Assembly (NCBI GenBank): GCA_029959645.1
Contig: JASCOJ010000014.1
Coordinates: 1-36,070, forward strand
Direction of reading: 5' to 3'
Length of the DNA: 36,070 nucleotides
DNA from: Microbacteriaceae bacterium PS02332
GTDB taxonomy: Bacteria; Actinomycetota; Actinomycetes; Actinomycetales; Microbacteriaceae
A model generated the notes under the pieces. That model ran no database searches, was not told where the DNA came from, and was given only the letters and a program-made list of their open reading frames with translations. Below are positions 1-11,538 of this stretch, piece after piece. Position 1 is the stretch's first letter. Each line of letters begins with the position of its first letter. Both the position numbers and the translations under genes were made by a program.

Positions 1-537
1 CGCCTCGGCGACGCGCGAGAGCAGCTGCGCCGCGCGCGAGACGCTCGCGGCGCGCCGGACCCGACCGGGCGTGACCCGGTCGCCGATCGCGACGAGGAGG
101 CCGGCGAGCGGCCCGAGCACGATCCGGACGCCGCGGACGAGTCCGCCGGTGACGCCGATGAACTGCTCGGCGTGGGCACGGCCGACGCTCCGCGGGCTCG
201 AACCGACGAGGACGAACGACACCGCGGTCATGACGGCCGCCGAGACGATCAGGGCGACCCACCACGTGTCGAAGACGGTCACGAGCGCGATCGTCACGAG
301 CACCGCCGCGGCGGTCTCGGCGAGCACGCGGAAGAAGTTCAGGGCGTTGACGTGGGCGCCGGGGTCGTCCGCGACCGCCTCGATGGCCCGGCGGCGGGAG
401 CTCCCGCGGGCGATCTCCTCGAGGTCGGCGCGGGACAGCACGGACAACGCGGAGTCGGCGGCCGCGAGCAGGCCACCGAGGACCACCAGCACGAACGCCA
501 CCGCGAGCAGGACGGCGACGAGGAGCACCGGGCTCAC
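1..537 (-). CDS. CNNM/DUF21 (CorC/HlyC-type) membrane protein, 3' part cut by window edge
   Basis: The first 179 residues of a membrane protein are present; the rest lies beyond the window. It starts at GTG 537, which overlaps the ybeY stop in a GTGA junction. The N-terminus is a long hydrophobic helix (about residues 4-24), followed by the small-residue stretch [12 protein letters not shown] that matches the conserved segment after helix 1 of the DUF21/CNNM domain. Two more membrane helices are near 71-90 and 92-112, and SPRSVGR near 114-120 resembles the conserved P-K/R segment of the family. CNNM/CorC proteins are linked to magnesium or cobalt efflux, with CBS domains after the membrane part; those would be off-window. 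The gene order phoH-ybeY-CNNM is common in Actinobacteria and usually leads to era. Family assignment is fairly safe; the transported ion is not known. Confidence 0.85.
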
Positions 538-995
538 CGCCCCCGACGCTGTGCGGCGAAGGCGGTGAGGATCTCGCCCTGCAGGCCGAACATCTCGGCC
601 TTCTCGTCCGGCTCCGCGTGGTCGAACCCGAGCAGGTGCAGGATGCCGTGGCAGGTCAGCAGCAGGATCTCGTCGAGCGTCGAGTGCCCGGCGGTCTTCG
701 CCTGCTCCTCGGCGACCTGCGGGCAGACGACGATGTCGCCGAGCAGCCCGGCGGGTGTCGGTTCGTCCTCGGTGCCGGGGCGGAGCTCGTCCATCGGGAA
801 GCTCAGGACGTCCGTCGGACCCGGCTCGTCCATCCACCGGATGTGCAGCTGTTCCATCGCGCCCTCGTCGACGAAGACGATCGCGAGTTCCGCGTCCGCG
901 TGCACGTGCATCGCGTCGAGCGCGAAGGCGGCGAGCCGCTGCACCGTCGCGCTGTCGACCTCGACGCCGGACTCGTTGTTGAGCTCGATGCTCAC
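534..995 (-). CDS. ybeY: YbeY endoribonuclease (rRNA maturation)
   Basis: A 153-residue protein of normal family length. The zinc-binding motif H-x3-H-x5-H is seen as [11 protein letters not shown] at residues 116-126 (H116, H120, H126), the hallmark of YbeY. TDVLSFP near 61-67 is the other conserved family segment. YbeY is a metal-dependent single-strand endoribonuclease acting in 16S rRNA 3' end processing and 70S ribosome quality control. It starts at GTG 995, overlapping the phoH stop (GTGA), with a GGAGG Shine-Dalgarno six bases upstream inside phoH. Translational coupling to phoH is likely. Confidence 0.95.
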
Positions 996-2017
996 CGCTT
1001 GCCTCCTCGGGCCTGCTCGGCGAGGCGTTCCTCGTCGTAGACGGTGTACGCGTCGACGATCCGGCCGACCAAGGTGTGCCGCACGACGTCCTCGCTGCCG
1101 AGGCGGGCGAAGTGGATGTCCTCGACCGAGTCGAGGATCCGCGTGACGAGCCGGAGGCCCGAGACGTTGCCGGGCAGGTCGACCTGCGTGATGTCGCCGG
1201 TGATCACCATCTTCGAGCCGAAGCCGAGACGGGTCAGGAACATCTTCATCTGCTCGGGCGTGGTGTTCTGGGCCTCGTCGAGCACGACGAACGAGTCGTT
1301 CAGGGTGCGACCACGCATGTACGCGAGCGGGGCGACCTCGACCGTGCCGGCCGCGAGGAGCTTCGGCACGAGCTCGGGGTCCATCATCTCGTTGAGCGCG
1401 TCGTAGAGCGGCCGGAGGTACGGGTCGATCTTGTCGGTCAGGGTGCCGGGCAGGAAGCCGAGCCGCTCACCGGCCTCGACCGCCGGGCGGGTGAGGATGA
1501 TCCGGGTCACCTCGCGGCGCTGGAGGGCCTGCACGGCCTTCGCCATCGCCAGGTAGGTCTTGCCGGTACCGGCGGGGCCGATCCCGAACGTGATCGTGTG
1601 CTCGTCGATCGCGTCGACGTAGGCCCGCTGCCCGTCCGTCTTGGGGCGCACGGACTTCCCGCGGCTGGACACGATCGGGGTGCCGAACGTGTCCGACGGC
1701 CGGCGGTCCTCGTCGAGGATCCGTGCCGAGGTCGGGACGTCGGCCTCACCGATGTCCTGGCCGCGGCGGACCATGCCGACGAGTTCGTCGACGAGGGACC
1801 GGGCGCGGACGACGTCGCGTTCCGGGCCGGTCAGGGTGACCTCGTTGCCCCGGACCAGGACCTGCACGCTCGGGTACTGGCGCTCAACGGTCCGCAGCAG
1901 GCGGTCCTGCGGGCCGAGCAGTTGCACCATGGCGATGCCGTCGACGGTGATGTGGTCGGTGGAGCTGGGCTCCGAGTCCGGGGTGGCTCCGGACGGGAGG
2001 GGTGCGTCAGCTGGCAA
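992..2017 (-). CDS. phoH: PhoH-like ATPase
   Basis: About 341 residues. The Walker A motif GPAGTGKT is at residues 147-154 and the Walker B motif FVVLDEAQN follows, in the arrangement of the PhoH family (a helicase superfamily 1-like nucleotide-binding domain). The N-terminal 100 residues resemble the KH-like nucleic-acid-binding extension seen before the PhoH core. The frame is open well upstream into the HIT gene, but no ATG or GTG falls between there and the conserved part. The TTG at 2017 has AGGAAGG (2023-2029) five bases upstream, so I choose it; this overlaps the HIT gene by 11 bases. The role is likely RNA metabolism, as suggested by the constant neighbour ybeY. The exact activity is not established. 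Confidence 0.9.
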
Positions 2018-2357
2018 GGGTGCCTTCCTGCAGGTCGCCTGCGAGTACGTGCGCGTGCACGTGGAACACGGTCTGACCGGCGCGTTCGCCGGTGTTGAAG
2101 ACGAGCCGGTACTGGCCGCCGGCACGCTCGTCGGCGATGCGCTGTGCGGTGGCGACCAGGTGCGCGAGCAGGTCGGGATCGCCGGCGGCGAGCTCGGTCA
2201 CGGTCGCGTAGGCCTCGGTCTTCGGCACGACGAGGACGTGCACGGGGGCCTGCGGGGCGATGTCCTCGAAGGCGATCACCCGGTCGTCCTCGGCCACGAT
2301 GGTGGCCGGGACCTCCCGCGCGACGATCTTCGTGAAGATGCTCGGCGTGCTGCTCAT
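2007..2357 (-). CDS. HIT family nucleotide-binding hydrolase
   Basis: A 116-residue protein of normal HIT length. It has the histidine triad as HVHAHVL near residues 99-105 (H-x-H-x-H-x-x), and the HVLVVPK strand near 40-46 typical of HINT/PKCI-like proteins. HIT proteins hydrolyse nucleoside phosphoramidates or AMP-linked compounds; the physiological substrate here cannot be told. The start ATG 2357 is preceded by TACGAT at 2364-2369 with a six-base spacer and no Shine-Dalgarno, suggesting a leaderless transcript that also covers phoH, ybeY and the CNNM gene. The frame stays open upstream into rsmE, but that extension is Arg-rich shadow sequence. Confidence 0.92.
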   Translation of the reverse strand: MSSTPSIFTKIVAREVPATIVAEDDRVIAFEDIAPQAPVHVLVVPKTEAYATVTELAAGDPDLLAHLVATAQRIADERAGGQYRLVFNTGERAGQTVFHVHAHVLAGDLQEGTLAS

Positions 2358-2363
2358 GCCCCC

Positions 2364-2369
2364 ATCGTA
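2364..2369 (-). promoter_or_regulatory. Candidate -10 element for HIT-phoH-ybeY (leaderless)
   Basis: TACGAT on the minus strand fits TANNNT and lies six bases before the HIT ATG. No Shine-Dalgarno lies between them. No convincing -35 is visible. Confidence 0.5.
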
Positions 2370-2416
2370 GGACGCGCGACCGACGCCGGGCCGTCCCGTC
2401 GCCGCCGTGGGGGACG

Positions 2417-3169
2417 TCACCAGCGCCCGAGCCGCGCCAGCAGGACGGCCAGCGCCGCCGGGCCCGCGGTCGAGGTGCGCAGCACCGAGTCGCCGAGCCG
2501 GACGCGCACCGCGCCGGCGGCGGTCAGTCGGTCGAGCTCGGACGGGTCGATGCCGCCCTCGGGCCCGACGACGAGCGCGATCTCGTCGGTGTCCGCCGGT
2601 GGGTCCCAGGTCGCGAGCCGGGTGGTGGCGGTCGGGTCGAGCAACACCAGCGTGCGCCGCGCCTCCTCGCCGGCCGCGCCGGCGCCACCGGCGAGCTGGG
2701 CCGTCGTGACCGGAGGCACGACCACCGGGACGCGGGACCGGATCGCCTGCTTCGCGGCCTCCTGCGCGATCGCGGCCCAGCGCGCCCGGCCCTTCTCGAC
2801 CTTCGCGCCGTCCCACCGGGCGACGCTCCGGGCAGCCGACCACGGGACCACCCGGTCGACGCCGATCTCGGTCGCCGCCTGCACGGCCATCTCGTCGCGC
2901 CCGCCCTTGGCGAGGGCCTGCACGAGCGTCAGCGACGGCCGGGGCGCCGGTTCGACCTCGACGGCCTCGACCGCCAGCTCGAGCGAGTCCTTGTCGACCG
3001 CGACGACCGCGCCGCGGACGACCGTGCCACGGCCGTCCGCGATCCGGAGCCGCTCGCCGACCCGCACGCGCGCGACCGTCACCGCGTGCCGGCCCTCGGG
3101 GCCGTCGAGGGTCACGGACCCGCCGACCGCGAGGTCGTCGAACCCGTCGACCAGGTAGAGCGAGGCCAT
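2417..3169 (-). CDS. rsmE: 16S rRNA (uracil-1498-N3)-methyltransferase RsmE
   Basis: A 250-residue SPOUT-family methyltransferase of normal length. The C-terminal knot region shows LVVGPEGGI and LRTSTAGPAAL, the S-adenosylmethionine-binding signature of RsmE. The N-terminal PUA-like part has EGRHAVTVARVRVGE, matching the conserved HxxxVLR-type segment. RsmE methylates U1498 of 16S rRNA in the small subunit. The ATG shares one base with the dnaJ stop (TGATG) and has no clear Shine-Dalgarno, so it is probably translated by coupling. The dnaJ-rsmE order is widely conserved in Actinobacteria and Firmicutes. Confidence 0.95.
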   Translation of the reverse strand: MASLYLVDGFDDLAVGGSVTLDGPEGRHAVTVARVRVGERLRIADGRGTVVRGAVVAVDKDSLELAVEAVEVEPAPRPSLTLVQALAKGGRDEMAVQAATEIGVDRVVPWSAARSVARWDGAKVEKGRARWAAIAQEAAKQAIRSRVPVVVPPVTTAQLAGGAGAAGEEARRTLVLLDPTATTRLATWDPPADTDEIALVVGPEGGIDPSELDRLTAAGAVRVRLGDSVLRTSTAGPAALAVLLARLGRW

Positions 3170-8584: not shown

Positions 8585-8620
8585 CGGGAGGCCCGTCCGC
8601 GGCCCGCCACGGGCCTCCCG
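8585..8620 (-). terminator. Terminator hairpin after the SipW-type cassette
   Basis: A perfect 12-base-pair stem: CGGGAGGCCCGT (8585-8596), a 12-base loop, then ACGGGCCTCCCG (8609-8620). It lies 41 bases past the stop at 8662. There is no T-tract, as is common in high-GC actinobacteria. Confidence 0.75.
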
Positions 8621-8661: not shown

Positions 8662-9972
8662 TCAGTTCGCGGTGACGGCGACGTTCCGCCACTCGGCGGT
8701 GACGCCGTGCGTCCGGAGGCCGACCGCTCCCGTCGAGGCGTTGCAGTTCGAGAACGTCGTCGTGACCTGGGTCGCCGTCCCGCCCGCGGACGGGGCCGCC
8801 GTGGCGGTCACCGTGCAGCCGCTGACCGCGACGGTCAGGTGCCACCACTCGTTCTGCACCGGCCCGCGCGACAGGTCCGCACCGGCGGGTTCGTAGTAGC
8901 CGTACTGCTGCCGGCCCACCTTGAGACGGGTGCCGCTGATCGCGACGGACCAACCCCGGAGCGCATCGAGCCCGACGGCCGGGTCCGAGACCCGGACGAC
9001 GAGGCCGGCGTCGACGCCCGCCGTCGGCCGGCCGGTCATCCGGACGTCCCCGGTCATCGTCATGTCCGTCCACGTGCGGTTCAGCACGTCCTTGTCGCCC
9101 TGGCCGCTCTGCGGGTCGTCGGCGATCGTCTCGCGCTGCCCGTCGAACGTCCAGGTGCCCCCGTAGGTCGTCCCGGGGCTGCCGTCCCAGAACGAGCCCG
9201 TCGTCAGTGTCGAGTTCCACGGCTCCGTGGCGGTGCCCGTCGTGCCACCCGTGGTCGCGCTGACGAACCGGAACCCGGACGTGCCCGACTGGTCGCGGAG
9301 TCCGATCGCTCCGGCGGTGTGGCAGGTCTCCGGCGGGTCGGTGTAGGTGAGGGACGTCCAGGTGTTGGCGCCGACCGTGGTCTGCCAGACGGTGAAGGTG
9401 CACCCGACCGCCTGCACGACGACGTGGTAGAAGTTCCCCCTGCCGATCCCGCTCGCGATGGACTTGCGGGCCAGCTCGGTGGAGGTGCCGCCGTCCGTCC
9501 GGCTGAGCACGAGCGACTGGTCGCCGGCCGTGATGGCGGCGGAGTAGCCACGGAAGGCGTCCGCACCGACCGCGGGCTGGGTGACCCGGAACAGCAGACC
9601 GGCCTGCGCCCCCGAGTTCACCTGGACGTCGCCCTGCAGCGTGTAGTCGGTCCACGCGGGGTTGCCCGTGACGGCCTTCGCACCGCCGTCACCGCCGCAG
9701 TCCTCGAGGTACTTGCCGTACCCGAAGGTCGTGACGGTCGACCAGCAGCCGCCGTAGGTCTTCCACTCCGGGGCGCCGCCGGAGAAGGAGTCGCGGTACG
9801 GGAAGTCCGTCGGGGTGTAGTCGGCCGCCGTGCTGACCGTGTCGGTCGGGTGCCGGAAGACCTGCGTGTACGCCGCGTTCGTCGACGGGAGCACCCCGAC
9901 GAGGACGACCACGAGCGCGGCGACCGCGACGACCGCGGCACCCCACGGCCGCCGCCGCCCGGCGGTGGTCAT
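8662..9972 (-). CDS. Exported protein with two concanavalin-like (LamG/DUF1080-like) domains
   Basis: A 436-residue predicted secreted protein. It has a basic N-terminus, a hydrophobic stretch at about residues 11-29, then AYTQVFRHPTDTVSTAA at 34-50, which closely matches the same region of the TasA-like protein upstream. Two similar halves follow (about 55-245 and 255-436). Matching segments are GDVQVNSGAQAGLLFRVTQP with GDVRMTGRP..AGLVVRVSDP, then PAVG-DA-RG-S-AI in both, and AGAIGLRD with TGAVGLRT. The repeats look like the LamG/3-keto-disaccharide hydrolase (DUF1080) type of beta-sandwich; no catalytic residues can be assigned. It may bind carbohydrate or serve as a surface or matrix protein (inference). 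The ATG overlaps the peptidase stop (ATGA). Confidence 0.8.
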   Translation of the reverse strand: MTTAGRRRPWGAAVVAVAALVVVLVGVLPSTNAAYTQVFRHPTDTVSTAADYTPTDFPYRDSFSGGAPEWKTYGGCWSTVTTFGYGKYLEDCGGDGGAKAVTGNPAWTDYTLQGDVQVNSGAQAGLLFRVTQPAVGADAFRGYSAAITAGDQSLVLSRTDGGTSTELARKSIASGIGRGNFYHVVVQAVGCTFTVWQTTVGANTWTSLTYTDPPETCHTAGAIGLRDQSGTSGFRFVSATTGGTTGTATEPWNSTLTTGSFWDGSPGTTYGGTWTFDGQRETIADDPQSGQGDKDVLNRTWTDMTMTGDVRMTGRPTAGVDAGLVVRVSDPAVGLDALRGWSVAISGTRLKVGRQQYGYYEPAGADLSRGPVQNEWWHLTVAVSGCTVTATAAPSAGGTATQVTTTFSNCNASTGAVGLRTHGVTAEWRNVAVTAN

Positions 9973-10880
9973 GCCGGTACCCCGTCGAGGTCGACCCGGT
10001 CCACGCGCCCGACGACCGCGGCGACGACGACCGGCAGGGCACAGACGACGCCGAGCAGGACCCAGCCCGCCGGCGGGAGGTCGAGGTGCGCGGCGAGCTG
10101 GAAGTGCCCTCCGGTCCCGCCCGGCACCGCCAGCACGGCGCTCTGCCCGCTGACCAGGCGCGCGGTGCCGCCGTCCGGGACGACGGCCCGGACCGGCAGG
10201 ACGCCGGTGGACACGACCCGGGCGACGGAGCCCCCCGCCTGGTCCGCAGTGCCGAGCATCTGCACCGCGACGAACGGCCGCAGCACGGCGGCGGCCACCG
10301 CGACCGACAGCGAGGTGCCGAGGACGCGGAGCGCGGTGCGGACCTCACCACGAGCGAGGAACCCGGTGGCGAACCACACGAGGGCGGCACCCGCCACGAC
10401 CTCCGGCAGGGCCCGCGCGACCCAGCCGACGCCGGGCAGGACCGCCACGACCCGACCGACGACGGCACCCCGGTCGAGGAGCCACGGGTCGTCGGCGCCG
10501 TTCCCGTCACCCCGGGTCGTGATCCCCCGCGCGGTCACCGCCGTGATGCGGTGCGTGTAGGTGGTCCCGACGGCGGGGTCCGGGCGGAACGTGATGACGT
10601 CGCCGGCGTGCAACGGGGTCGTCCCGAGCGGCACCGTGACCACGGCGCTGCCCACCGGAGCTGCCTGCCCCATCGAGGGCGACCGCACGTCGAAGCCGCG
10701 GAGCCCGAGGGCCATCGCGGCGCCGATCGCGAGCAGGACGGCGAGGACCACCAGCACGCCGACCACGAGCGAGCCGTCGACGCCGGTACCGGTGCCCCGG
10801 CGGCGTCCGCGCACGCCGGAGCGGACGGGAGTCCCCAGCGTGGGGACCCACCGCCCTCCCGACTCGCTGCTCGCGCTCAT
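9969..10880 (-). CDS. SipW-type signal peptidase I with extra C-terminal membrane domain
   Basis: A 303-residue S26 family protein. A membrane helix lies near residues 37-58. RSPSM at 66-70 carries the likely nucleophile S69. GDVITFRP at 93-100 and YTHRITAV at 108-115 supply H110 in place of the Lys of ordinary bacterial leader peptidases, which is the SipW/archaeal/ER type. TTRGDGNGADDPW at 121-133 is the conserved Asp-containing box. Ordinary SipW proteins are about 190 residues; here about 140 more residues add membrane segments near 160-175, 185-210 and the C-terminus, with an extracytoplasmic stretch between. The start has GGAGG four bases upstream. It lies between two genes with SipW-type processing motifs, which are its likely substrates. 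Confidence 0.87.
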   Translation of the reverse strand: MSASSESGGRWVPTLGTPVRSGVRGRRRGTGTGVDGSLVVGVLVVLAVLLAIGAAMALGLRGFDVRSPSMGQAAPVGSAVVTVPLGTTPLHAGDVITFRPDPAVGTTYTHRITAVTARGITTRGDGNGADDPWLLDRGAVVGRVVAVLPGVGWVARALPEVVAGAALVWFATGFLARGEVRTALRVLGTSLSVAVAAAVLRPFVAVQMLGTADQAGGSVARVVSTGVLPVRAVVPDGGTARLVSGQSAVLAVPGGTGGHFQLAAHLDLPPAGWVLLGVVCALPVVVAAVVGRVDRVDLDGVPA

Positions 10881-10920
10881 GTCGCCTCCGTCGCCGTGCC
10901 GCTCGGGATCGCCGTGCCGC

Positions 10921-11538
10921 TCAGGCGGTGAAGGTCCAGGTGATCGGCTGCGACAGTGAGAGGCCCGACGTGTCGTTCGCGCTCCCGGTCGGCAGGGTCA
11001 CGGTGACGACCGCGGTGTAGGACTCTCCGGGCGCCGGCGGGTTCGGGACAGCGACGCTGGTGCCGGCGATCGCCTTCGGCTTCGTGCTCGCCGGCAGGAC
11101 GTCGGCGCTGCGCCACTTCATCGTGACGATGACGCGGTCGCACAGGTCGGTGCCCGACGACGGGGTGGTCGTGCACGCTCCCGGGTTGAAGGTGAACGCC
11201 GTCGGGGTGGTCGAACCGGTGTTCTTGAACGTCACCGTGGTCGACTGCGAGTCGCCCGGGCGCAGGGTCATGCCGCTGTAGAGGTTCGTGTTCGAGCAGC
11301 TCGCGGCGCCGTTGGCGTCCGGCGCACAGTTCAGGGTGCTGCCGTCGGCGTTCCGCTGCTCGATGCTCGTGCTCGCCGTCGAGACGGTGTTCGTGCTGTG
11401 CAGGAAGCTCAGCGTGAACGCGGAGAGCGTCCCGGAGAACGAGAGGGAGAGGGCGACGGCGGCGACGACCCCGGCGCCGATCACCACCGCGCTGAAGCGC
11501 TTGCGCCCGGAAGTGGGCAGGACTGCGTGCTTGGACAT
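10921..11538 (-). CDS. TasA/CalY-like exported protein with SipW-dependent signal peptide
   Basis: A 205-residue protein. The basic N-terminus (SGRKR, residues 10-14) is followed by a hydrophobic stretch at 16-36 and AFTLSFLHSTNTVSTAS at 40-56. SGTLSAF-T fits the SipW-dependent signal region of TasA/camelysin-type proteins. The mature part has four Cys (71, 81, 122, 133), a beta-rich composition, and a TLRPGDSQSTTVTFKNTGST segment like the DUF11-like/TasA fold. TasA forms biofilm fibres in Bacillus; the role here is unknown. The frame is open further upstream, but ATG 11538 is chosen because it precedes the signal sequence directly and has GAAGG upstream. It is the first gene of the cassette, 40 bases before the signal peptidase. 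Confidence 0.82.
   Translation of the reverse strand: MSKHAVLPTSGRKRFSAVVIGAGVVAAVALSLSFSGTLSAFTLSFLHSTNTVSTASTSIEQRNADGSTLNCAPDANGAASCSNTNLYSGMTLRPGDSQSTTVTFKNTGSTTPTAFTFNPGACTTTPSSGTDLCDRVIVTMKWRSADVLPASTKPKAIAGTSVAVPNPPAPGESYTAVVTVTLPTGSANDTSGLSLSQPITWTFTA

Follow-up and report, generated by a model that had tools for sequence, protein, structure and literature searches.

TasA-type fibres have so far been studied in Bacillus and in archaea. The locus described here raises the question of whether actinobacteria possess such a fibre as well, together with an enzyme dedicated to its processing. It lies on a contig of 36,070 nucleotides (nt) from Microbacteriaceae bacterium PS02332 (assembly GCA_029959645.1, contig JASCOJ010000014.1, positions 1 to 36,070; this whole stretch is called the window), which is contig C55 of a draft genome labelled G000. 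On its minus strand, from 11538 to 8662, three open reading frames (ORFs) follow one another in the order g1 (protein P0001), peptidase (P0002) and g3 (P0003). A first-pass annotation of the sequence had read them as adjacent genes of a dedicated surface or matrix system, an idea that our analysis supports, with the matrix role assigned by analogy only. The cassette is probably a TasA-type extracellular fibre system of actinobacteria that brings its own processing enzyme.

10921..11538, minus strand: g1, TasA-like secreted protein of 205 amino acids, putative major fibre subunit
9969..10880, minus strand: extended SipW-like signal peptidase (endoplasmic reticulum (ER) type, Ser-His), 303 amino acids
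8662..9972, minus strand: g3, secreted protein of 436 amino acids with two jelly-roll domains, putative lectin-like second substrate
9969..9972, minus strand: 4-nt overlap of the peptidase stop with the g3 start, from the ORF ends

A gap of 40 nt separates g1 from the peptidase gene, and this gap and the overlap agree with the tight spacing first described.

Conservation of the cassette among actinobacteria

Co-occurrence in relatives had been proposed in the first-pass annotation as a check, and the cassette is indeed kept. We searched 67 Curtobacterium and 299 Microbacteriaceae genomes and, with duplicate loci removed and a split match in G266 and loci L003-L008 left out, counted 97 full-length extended peptidases; all 97 have the C-terminal extension by definition of the set. 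Upstream of 93 of these 97 lies g1; in the other four (L027, L065, L077, L082) the peptidase gene starts right at the edge of its contig, and each of these genomes has g1 on a different contig. Downstream, g3 is present in 95/97, the exceptions being L043, which has no g3, and L103, in which a LamG protein stands between g1 and the peptidase. When the start codon nearest the stop is taken, g3 overlaps the peptidase gene by 4 nt in 89 of the 95 cassettes. Within Curtobacterium, g1 occurs in 58/67 genomes and the full-length peptidase, with g1, in 56/67; in the g1-only genomes G014 and G066, g1 lies 136 and 232 nt from the contig end, and G020 and G063 have only a short peptidase. The genome of the window itself holds a second cassette, of the LamG type described below, on contig C144, with the order unchanged and a peptidase 41% identical.

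The arrangement recurs among named relatives, of which the best 80 of 131 were examined, many repeating the first set. The closest are Curtobacterium (63% peptidase identity to strain MCBA15_009), and the genera represented are Curtobacterium, Clavibacter, Rathayibacter, Frondihabitans, Subtercola, Frigoribacterium, Leifsonia, Planctomonas, Paenarthrobacter, Actinokineospora, Actinomycetospora and others. In these loci g1 is present wherever there is upstream DNA (74/74, with 6 contig ends), the rule used to identify g3 recognised it as a separate downstream gene in 76/80, and a g3-type protein occurs in 79/80 overall. At L149 (Clavibacter michiganensis CASJ009) the peptidase frame lacks a stop codon at about its usual place and runs on through the LamG gene, itself encoded in another frame; L152, from a Microbacteriaceae metagenome-assembled genome (MAG), is a tandem g1-peptidase-g1-peptidase with no g3 in the sequenced stretch examined.

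In a phylum-wide draw of 396 genomes, with at most six candidates scored per genome, the extended-peptidase model matched 71 genomes, at full length only in G000 and G702. The flanks, at most 1.5 kb long, of 28 short-peptidase loci from this draw (L196-L223) contained no g3, and 14 of the 28 had a g1-like gene (E 1e-3 or better). Thus, pairs of a SipW-like peptidase and a TasA-like protein occur across the phylum, and it is the extension that goes with the lectin-type gene.

The peptidase and its membrane extension

Proteins were aligned with one member per cluster: P0002 with 36/45 representatives (A1), P0001 with 28/30 (A2), P0003 with 8/9 (A3) and LamG-type g3 with 22/26 (A4). Residues S69, H110, D125 and D131 of the peptidase are invariant in all 37 rows of A1, and its Ser and His align with the S-M and H-R of human SEC11C (family profile match, E 6.6e-8), so that the Ser-His active site proposed at first stands. 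By its sequence, the enzyme is of the S26 ER type (SipW/SEC11-like), with Ser-His instead of Ser-Lys and a following Asp. With TIGR02228 (signal peptidase I, archaeal type) P0002 scores 42.7 bits (E 5.2e-11), short of the curated 51.85 bits, and all 37 members of the alignment match that model at E 0.01 or better. The Bacillus SipW model NF046067 of NCBIfam is matched by 25/37 members (best 1.9e-7) and not, at E 0.01, by P0002, and because P0002 is not listed under it we call the peptidase SipW-like rather than SipW.

The catalytic domain finds structural matches in SipA (4n31), SPC-C, LepB and SpsB. Beyond it, the predicted structure agrees with the unusual membrane extension that had been noted from the sequence, with transmembrane helices (TM) at residues 151-172, 178-200 and 270-293 around a small beta domain at 206-266 and a predicted local distance difference test score (pLDDT) mostly >90. 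The match to Streptococcus pyogenes SipA (4n31) is confined to residues 59-155, and the 135-residue SipA chain has no counterpart of the extension.

10431..10706, minus strand: catalytic domain of the peptidase, residues 59-150, from the invariant S69, H110, D125 and D131 and structural matches
10002..10430, minus strand: predicted C-terminal membrane extension of the peptidase, residues 151-293, about 150 residues, TM-TM-immunoglobulin (Ig)-like beta domain-TM
10080..10277, minus strand: small Ig/fibronectin type III (Fn3)-like domain of the peptidase, residues 202-267, presumably outside the membrane between TM3 and TM4

The extension reaches no Pfam or NCBIfam family cut-off, its sole listing being DUF6768 (E 0.22, residues 160-208). 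A g1-like domain was considered and finds no support, because matching the profile of residues 200-270 against that of g1 yielded a probability of only 0.6. TapA is absent among the 50 rows listed for the peptidase model, in a search that hardly tested the extension.

Other SipW-like peptidases were seen alongside these. In L081, L083, L087 and L093 the LamG cassette has a second, shorter peptidase gene next to it, encoded on the other strand. G000 has a third, short one (C255:9386-9796, L225), and close to it are two small secreted proteins whose leaders contain YALWN or FALWN; this is apparently a separate SipW-type set.

The TasA-like and lectin-like proteins

The structure model of g1 finds its best match in the TasA fibre and has the TasA jelly-roll fold as predicted, in keeping with the TasA/CalY likeness first suggested. 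The bundling pili of Pyrobaculum (PDB 7ueg), which unlike this cassette are archaeal, gave a Z within the range of common folds. The camelysin family PF12389 has no match for P0001, and 13/29 members of the g1 alignment match it at E 0.1 or better (best 0.0013). In four Curtobacterium cassettes of the 3-keto type described below (L011-L014), the peptidase is preceded by a tandem pair of differing g1 genes.

P0003 matches PF06439 (3-keto-disaccharide hydrolase) above the gathering score (55.1 bits, cut-off 26.8, E 1.3e-14) in two stretches, which bears out a secreted protein of two domains, and the nine-row g3 family profile matches levanase CBM66 (E 6.2e-5). These matches suggest likeness to hydrolases or sugar-binding proteins at the level of the fold only. 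P0003 has no NCBIfam match at E 1, and hence none to the TapA model that the library presumably includes.

9268..9768, minus strand: g3 domain 1, residues 69-235, 3-keto-disaccharide-hydrolase/CBM66-like, from PF06439 and the profile match
8671..9219, minus strand: g3 domain 2, about residues 252-434, putative second copy of the fold, from the second PF06439 stretch with the boundary set by eye from the alignment

Most relatives have a LamG-type protein in the place of g3, and all 22 aligned members match PF13385. Among the 97 cassettes, 10 are of the 3-keto type (that of the window), 86 of the LamG type (L015 counted in both) and two of neither; eight Curtobacterium genomes with a 3-keto cassette (L001, L009-L015) also carry a LamG cassette.

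A leader common to g1 and g3

Profile comparison of g1 with LamG-type g3 aligns g1 residues 9-56 with the g3 start (probability 95.4, E 1.7e-8) and nothing else. The two proteins have in common a predicted cleavage site followed by a conserved stretch that covers about the first 15 residues of the predicted mature protein.

11371..11421, minus strand: g1 cleavage-site and putative donor-strand motif AFTLSFLHSTNTVSTAS, aromatic residue second, from the alignment with the cut predicted
9823..9873, minus strand: g3 cleavage-site and putative donor-strand motif AYTQVFRHPTDTVSTAA, like that of g1 (g1-matrix score 8.3)

With a 17-residue matrix made from g1, 82 of 91 g3 proteins score above the 99.9th percentile of 2381 other ORFs from the same loci; the window's own g3 lies above the 99th percentile (5.2) and below the 99.9th (11.1). 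Motif likeness between g1 and g3 was compared in 91/97 cassettes (L103 and those lacking g1 or g3 excluded), in tests uncorrected for common descent, and was 41.5 within a cassette vs 37.6 between cassettes (n=91). In the non-redundant set (n=28) it was 41.0 vs 33.5, and in the LamG type alone 43.0 vs 38.1 (n=21), values reached by none of 20,000 permutations in either case; for the 3-keto type alone the effect is weak (n=9, P 0.04; n=7, P 0.07). The ungapped motif windows of L011 and L013 are misplaced yet counted, and the result stands without L011-L014 (n=25; own 44.4, other 35.6).

The aromatic residue of the motif is kept in the alignment columns of 29/29 g1, 9/9 3-keto and 22/22 LamG rows, and in 94/95 and 90/91 of the motif windows, the latter counts being biased because the matrix was built from g1 windows picked for F or Y second. 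This position may be of consequence, as LepB of Escherichia coli is reported, in the part of the study available, to cut poorly when P2' is aromatic, with TasA as an aromatic-P2' case processed by SipW (PMC10269814).

Fusions and insertions

Peptidase and g3 are also found as one protein. In two distant lineages, L186 (a Propionibacteriaceae MAG) and L189 (Actinomycetospora succinea), the peptidase, extension included, is followed within a single frame of 596 or 617 residues by a linker, a leader-like stretch and a LamG domain. The inner leader of L186 is picked out by the g1 profile at E 2.5e-4, that of L189 only weakly (0.43). In L103 the LamG domain lies within a protein both of whose flanks match a g1 profile built without it (9.8e-11 and 0.005), which looks like a fibre subunit that has taken in a lectin. 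A LamG insertion in a TasA-like domain of L224 is a likeness by eye only, the g1 profile finding nothing there at E 10. L224 itself, from the distant actinobacterium G702, has a long secreted protein with several LamG-like repeats (90-3027) before the extended peptidase.

Hairpins and flanking genes

A strong terminator had been proposed after g3, and this did not hold: a terminator scan found nothing on the minus strand, the G+C hairpin after g3 lacks a T-run, and shuffled versions of the stretch have the same folding energy (z 0.08). Stems as long as 12 bp are nevertheless uncommon (15/2000 base shuffles, 21/1200 window stretches of 91 nt).

8585..8620, minus strand: 12-bp G+C hairpin past g3 without a T-run, possible terminator, from a stem search

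Strong hairpins of 9-21 bp follow g1 in 56/82 LamG-type cassettes, with a sequence that varies by genus (18-58 nt past the stop in L002). Stems of at least 14 bp occur in 32/81 of the first 100-nt stretches past g1 and in 22/77 of those past g3, vs 7/754 random stretches of the same loci and 0/810 shuffles, these counts not being independent because the sequences are related. Six draft assembly breaks fall in or near the gap between g1 and the peptidase. The window cassette has no such hairpin, the longest stem in its 40-nt gap being 3 bp. The post-g1 hairpin is possibly a partial terminator or a messenger RNA stabiliser; as a partial terminator, it would make g1 more abundant than the peptidase and g3. 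It is comparable to the predicted terminator, with read-through, past bsaA of Clostridium perfringens, as given in the available part of that report (PMC7395162).

On the minus strand, lepA (13593-11746) lies on one side of the cassette and a DUF1990 gene (8548-7901) on the other. Both recur beside the 3-keto cassettes L114, L126 and L130; next to L014 lies a portion of the DUF1990 gene. The cassettes do not all occupy one site, as a search of 3 kb around the 3-keto cassette L112 turned up no lepA. A mobile-element origin was considered and set aside: 72,556 plasmid records gave one weak match (35%, Leifsonia).

Comparison with known systems

A literature search, short on subscription journals and without preprints, showed no publication on such a system in actinobacteria among the matches listed, and the accounts compared here are drawn from the available parts of their sources. 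The Bacillus subtilis tapA-sipW-tasA operon likewise combines a TasA-fold protein with a dedicated Ser-His peptidase and has a second substrate, TapA, whose N-terminus resembles that of the major subunit; a stop/start overlap is found in both, between tapA and sipW there and between peptidase and g3 here (PMC9674648, PMC10151520). TasA subunits are joined via an N-terminal donor strand, and TapA is a proposed fibre starter (PMC9674648, PMC10151520). Unlike the B. subtilis operon, the order here is major subunit, peptidase, second substrate, and the second substrate is a lectin-type jelly-roll protein.

Several SipW substrates round one peptidase are also described for sipW-tasA/calY/CapP of Bacillus cereus, one being an accessory protein that steers polymerisation; for CapP, the accessible text names no LamG or 3-keto domain, mentions no extended peptidase and does not contain the word 'lectin' (PMC13082335). 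In C. perfringens, extracellular BsaA is a self-polymerising matrix protein that requires SipW, the peptidase gene comes first, and bsaB, bsaC and bsaD encode putative secreted proteins (PMC7395162).

Compared with SipW, the peptidase described here is predicted to have four helices and an Ig-like outer domain. Bacillus SipW is not known to have either. What is new relative to TasA/SipW is thus the peptidase extension with its Ig-like outer domain and the lectin-type second substrate.

A proposed mechanism and its alternatives

In the mechanism that we propose, g1 as major subunit and g3 as lectin-like subunit would be exported by Sec with a special leader, whose predicted site has an aromatic residue where LepB works poorly, and the membrane-bound Ser-His peptidase would cleave both leaders and free an N-terminal strand. 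The g1 strand would insert into the next g1 subunit, so that the fibre grows; the g3 strand would dock the jelly-roll domains on the fibre, probably at its end or as decoration, and the docked domains would bind polysaccharide. Cleavage of both g1 and g3 by this peptidase is very likely. Fibre growth by strand exchange, by analogy with TasA, appears rather probable, and polysaccharide binding with a role in matrix or adhesion, again by analogy, is about evenly balanced. That g3 may be hung onto the fibre by a donor strand is suggested by the shared motif only. As the conserved stretch past the cut takes the place of the TasA donor strand, the simplest account is that the peptidase frees this strand in both proteins, with g1 polymerising and g3 being attached to the fibre by means of it.

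It is also conceivable, if unlikely, that the peptidase is a dedicated processor of two independent secreted proteins whose leader is common only because the enzyme is common. In that case g1 would have a TasA-like fold but remain a monomer or serve as a coat protein, and g3 would be soluble, acting as an enzyme or binding polysaccharide. The likeness of g1 and g3 stops after about 48 residues, as expected if only the leader is constrained, the g3 domains match enzyme-associated families (PF06439, levanase CBM66), and the fibre itself is a prediction. However, the motif continues past the predicted cut, over about 15 residues, to where TasA has its donor strand, according to the available part of the structural work (PMC9674648), and the cassette stays together in nearly all relatives examined. 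We consider it quite improbable that the extension is a sensor or second part unrelated to assembly, with the outer Ig-like domain sensing the envelope state and biofilm effects arising indirectly via signalling. Bacillus SipW is reported, in the accessible text, to affect matrix gene expression besides processing (PMC13082335), and the lack of any family assignment for the extension suits such a reading; yet the tail after TM4 has about 10 residues with no visible cytoplasmic signalling domain, and the extension accompanies a g3-type neighbour, with none in the 28 short-peptidase loci of the phylum within the flanks searched. That three unrelated secreted-protein genes are neighbours by chance is hardly credible, as the order is kept in 93/97 cassettes and nothing was found in favour of it.

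Biological significance

If the cassette is a TasA-type fibre system, a conserved strand-exchange fibre with a lectin-type subunit would exist in most Curtobacterium genomes (56/67) and in other actinobacteria. It is tempting, though doubtful, to see the extended peptidase as cutter and assembly platform in one, with the outer Ig-like domain held beside the active site by the extra helices. Equally tentatively, this domain might catch a donor strand just after its release, or a subunit by its open groove, and hand it to the growing fibre. If so, one enzyme would cover what SipW and TapA share in Bacillus, and the L186 and L189 fusions would be platforms carrying their own lectin subunit, released by self-cutting. 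The association of the extension with a lectin-type substrate makes it testable whether assembly is built into the signal peptidase.

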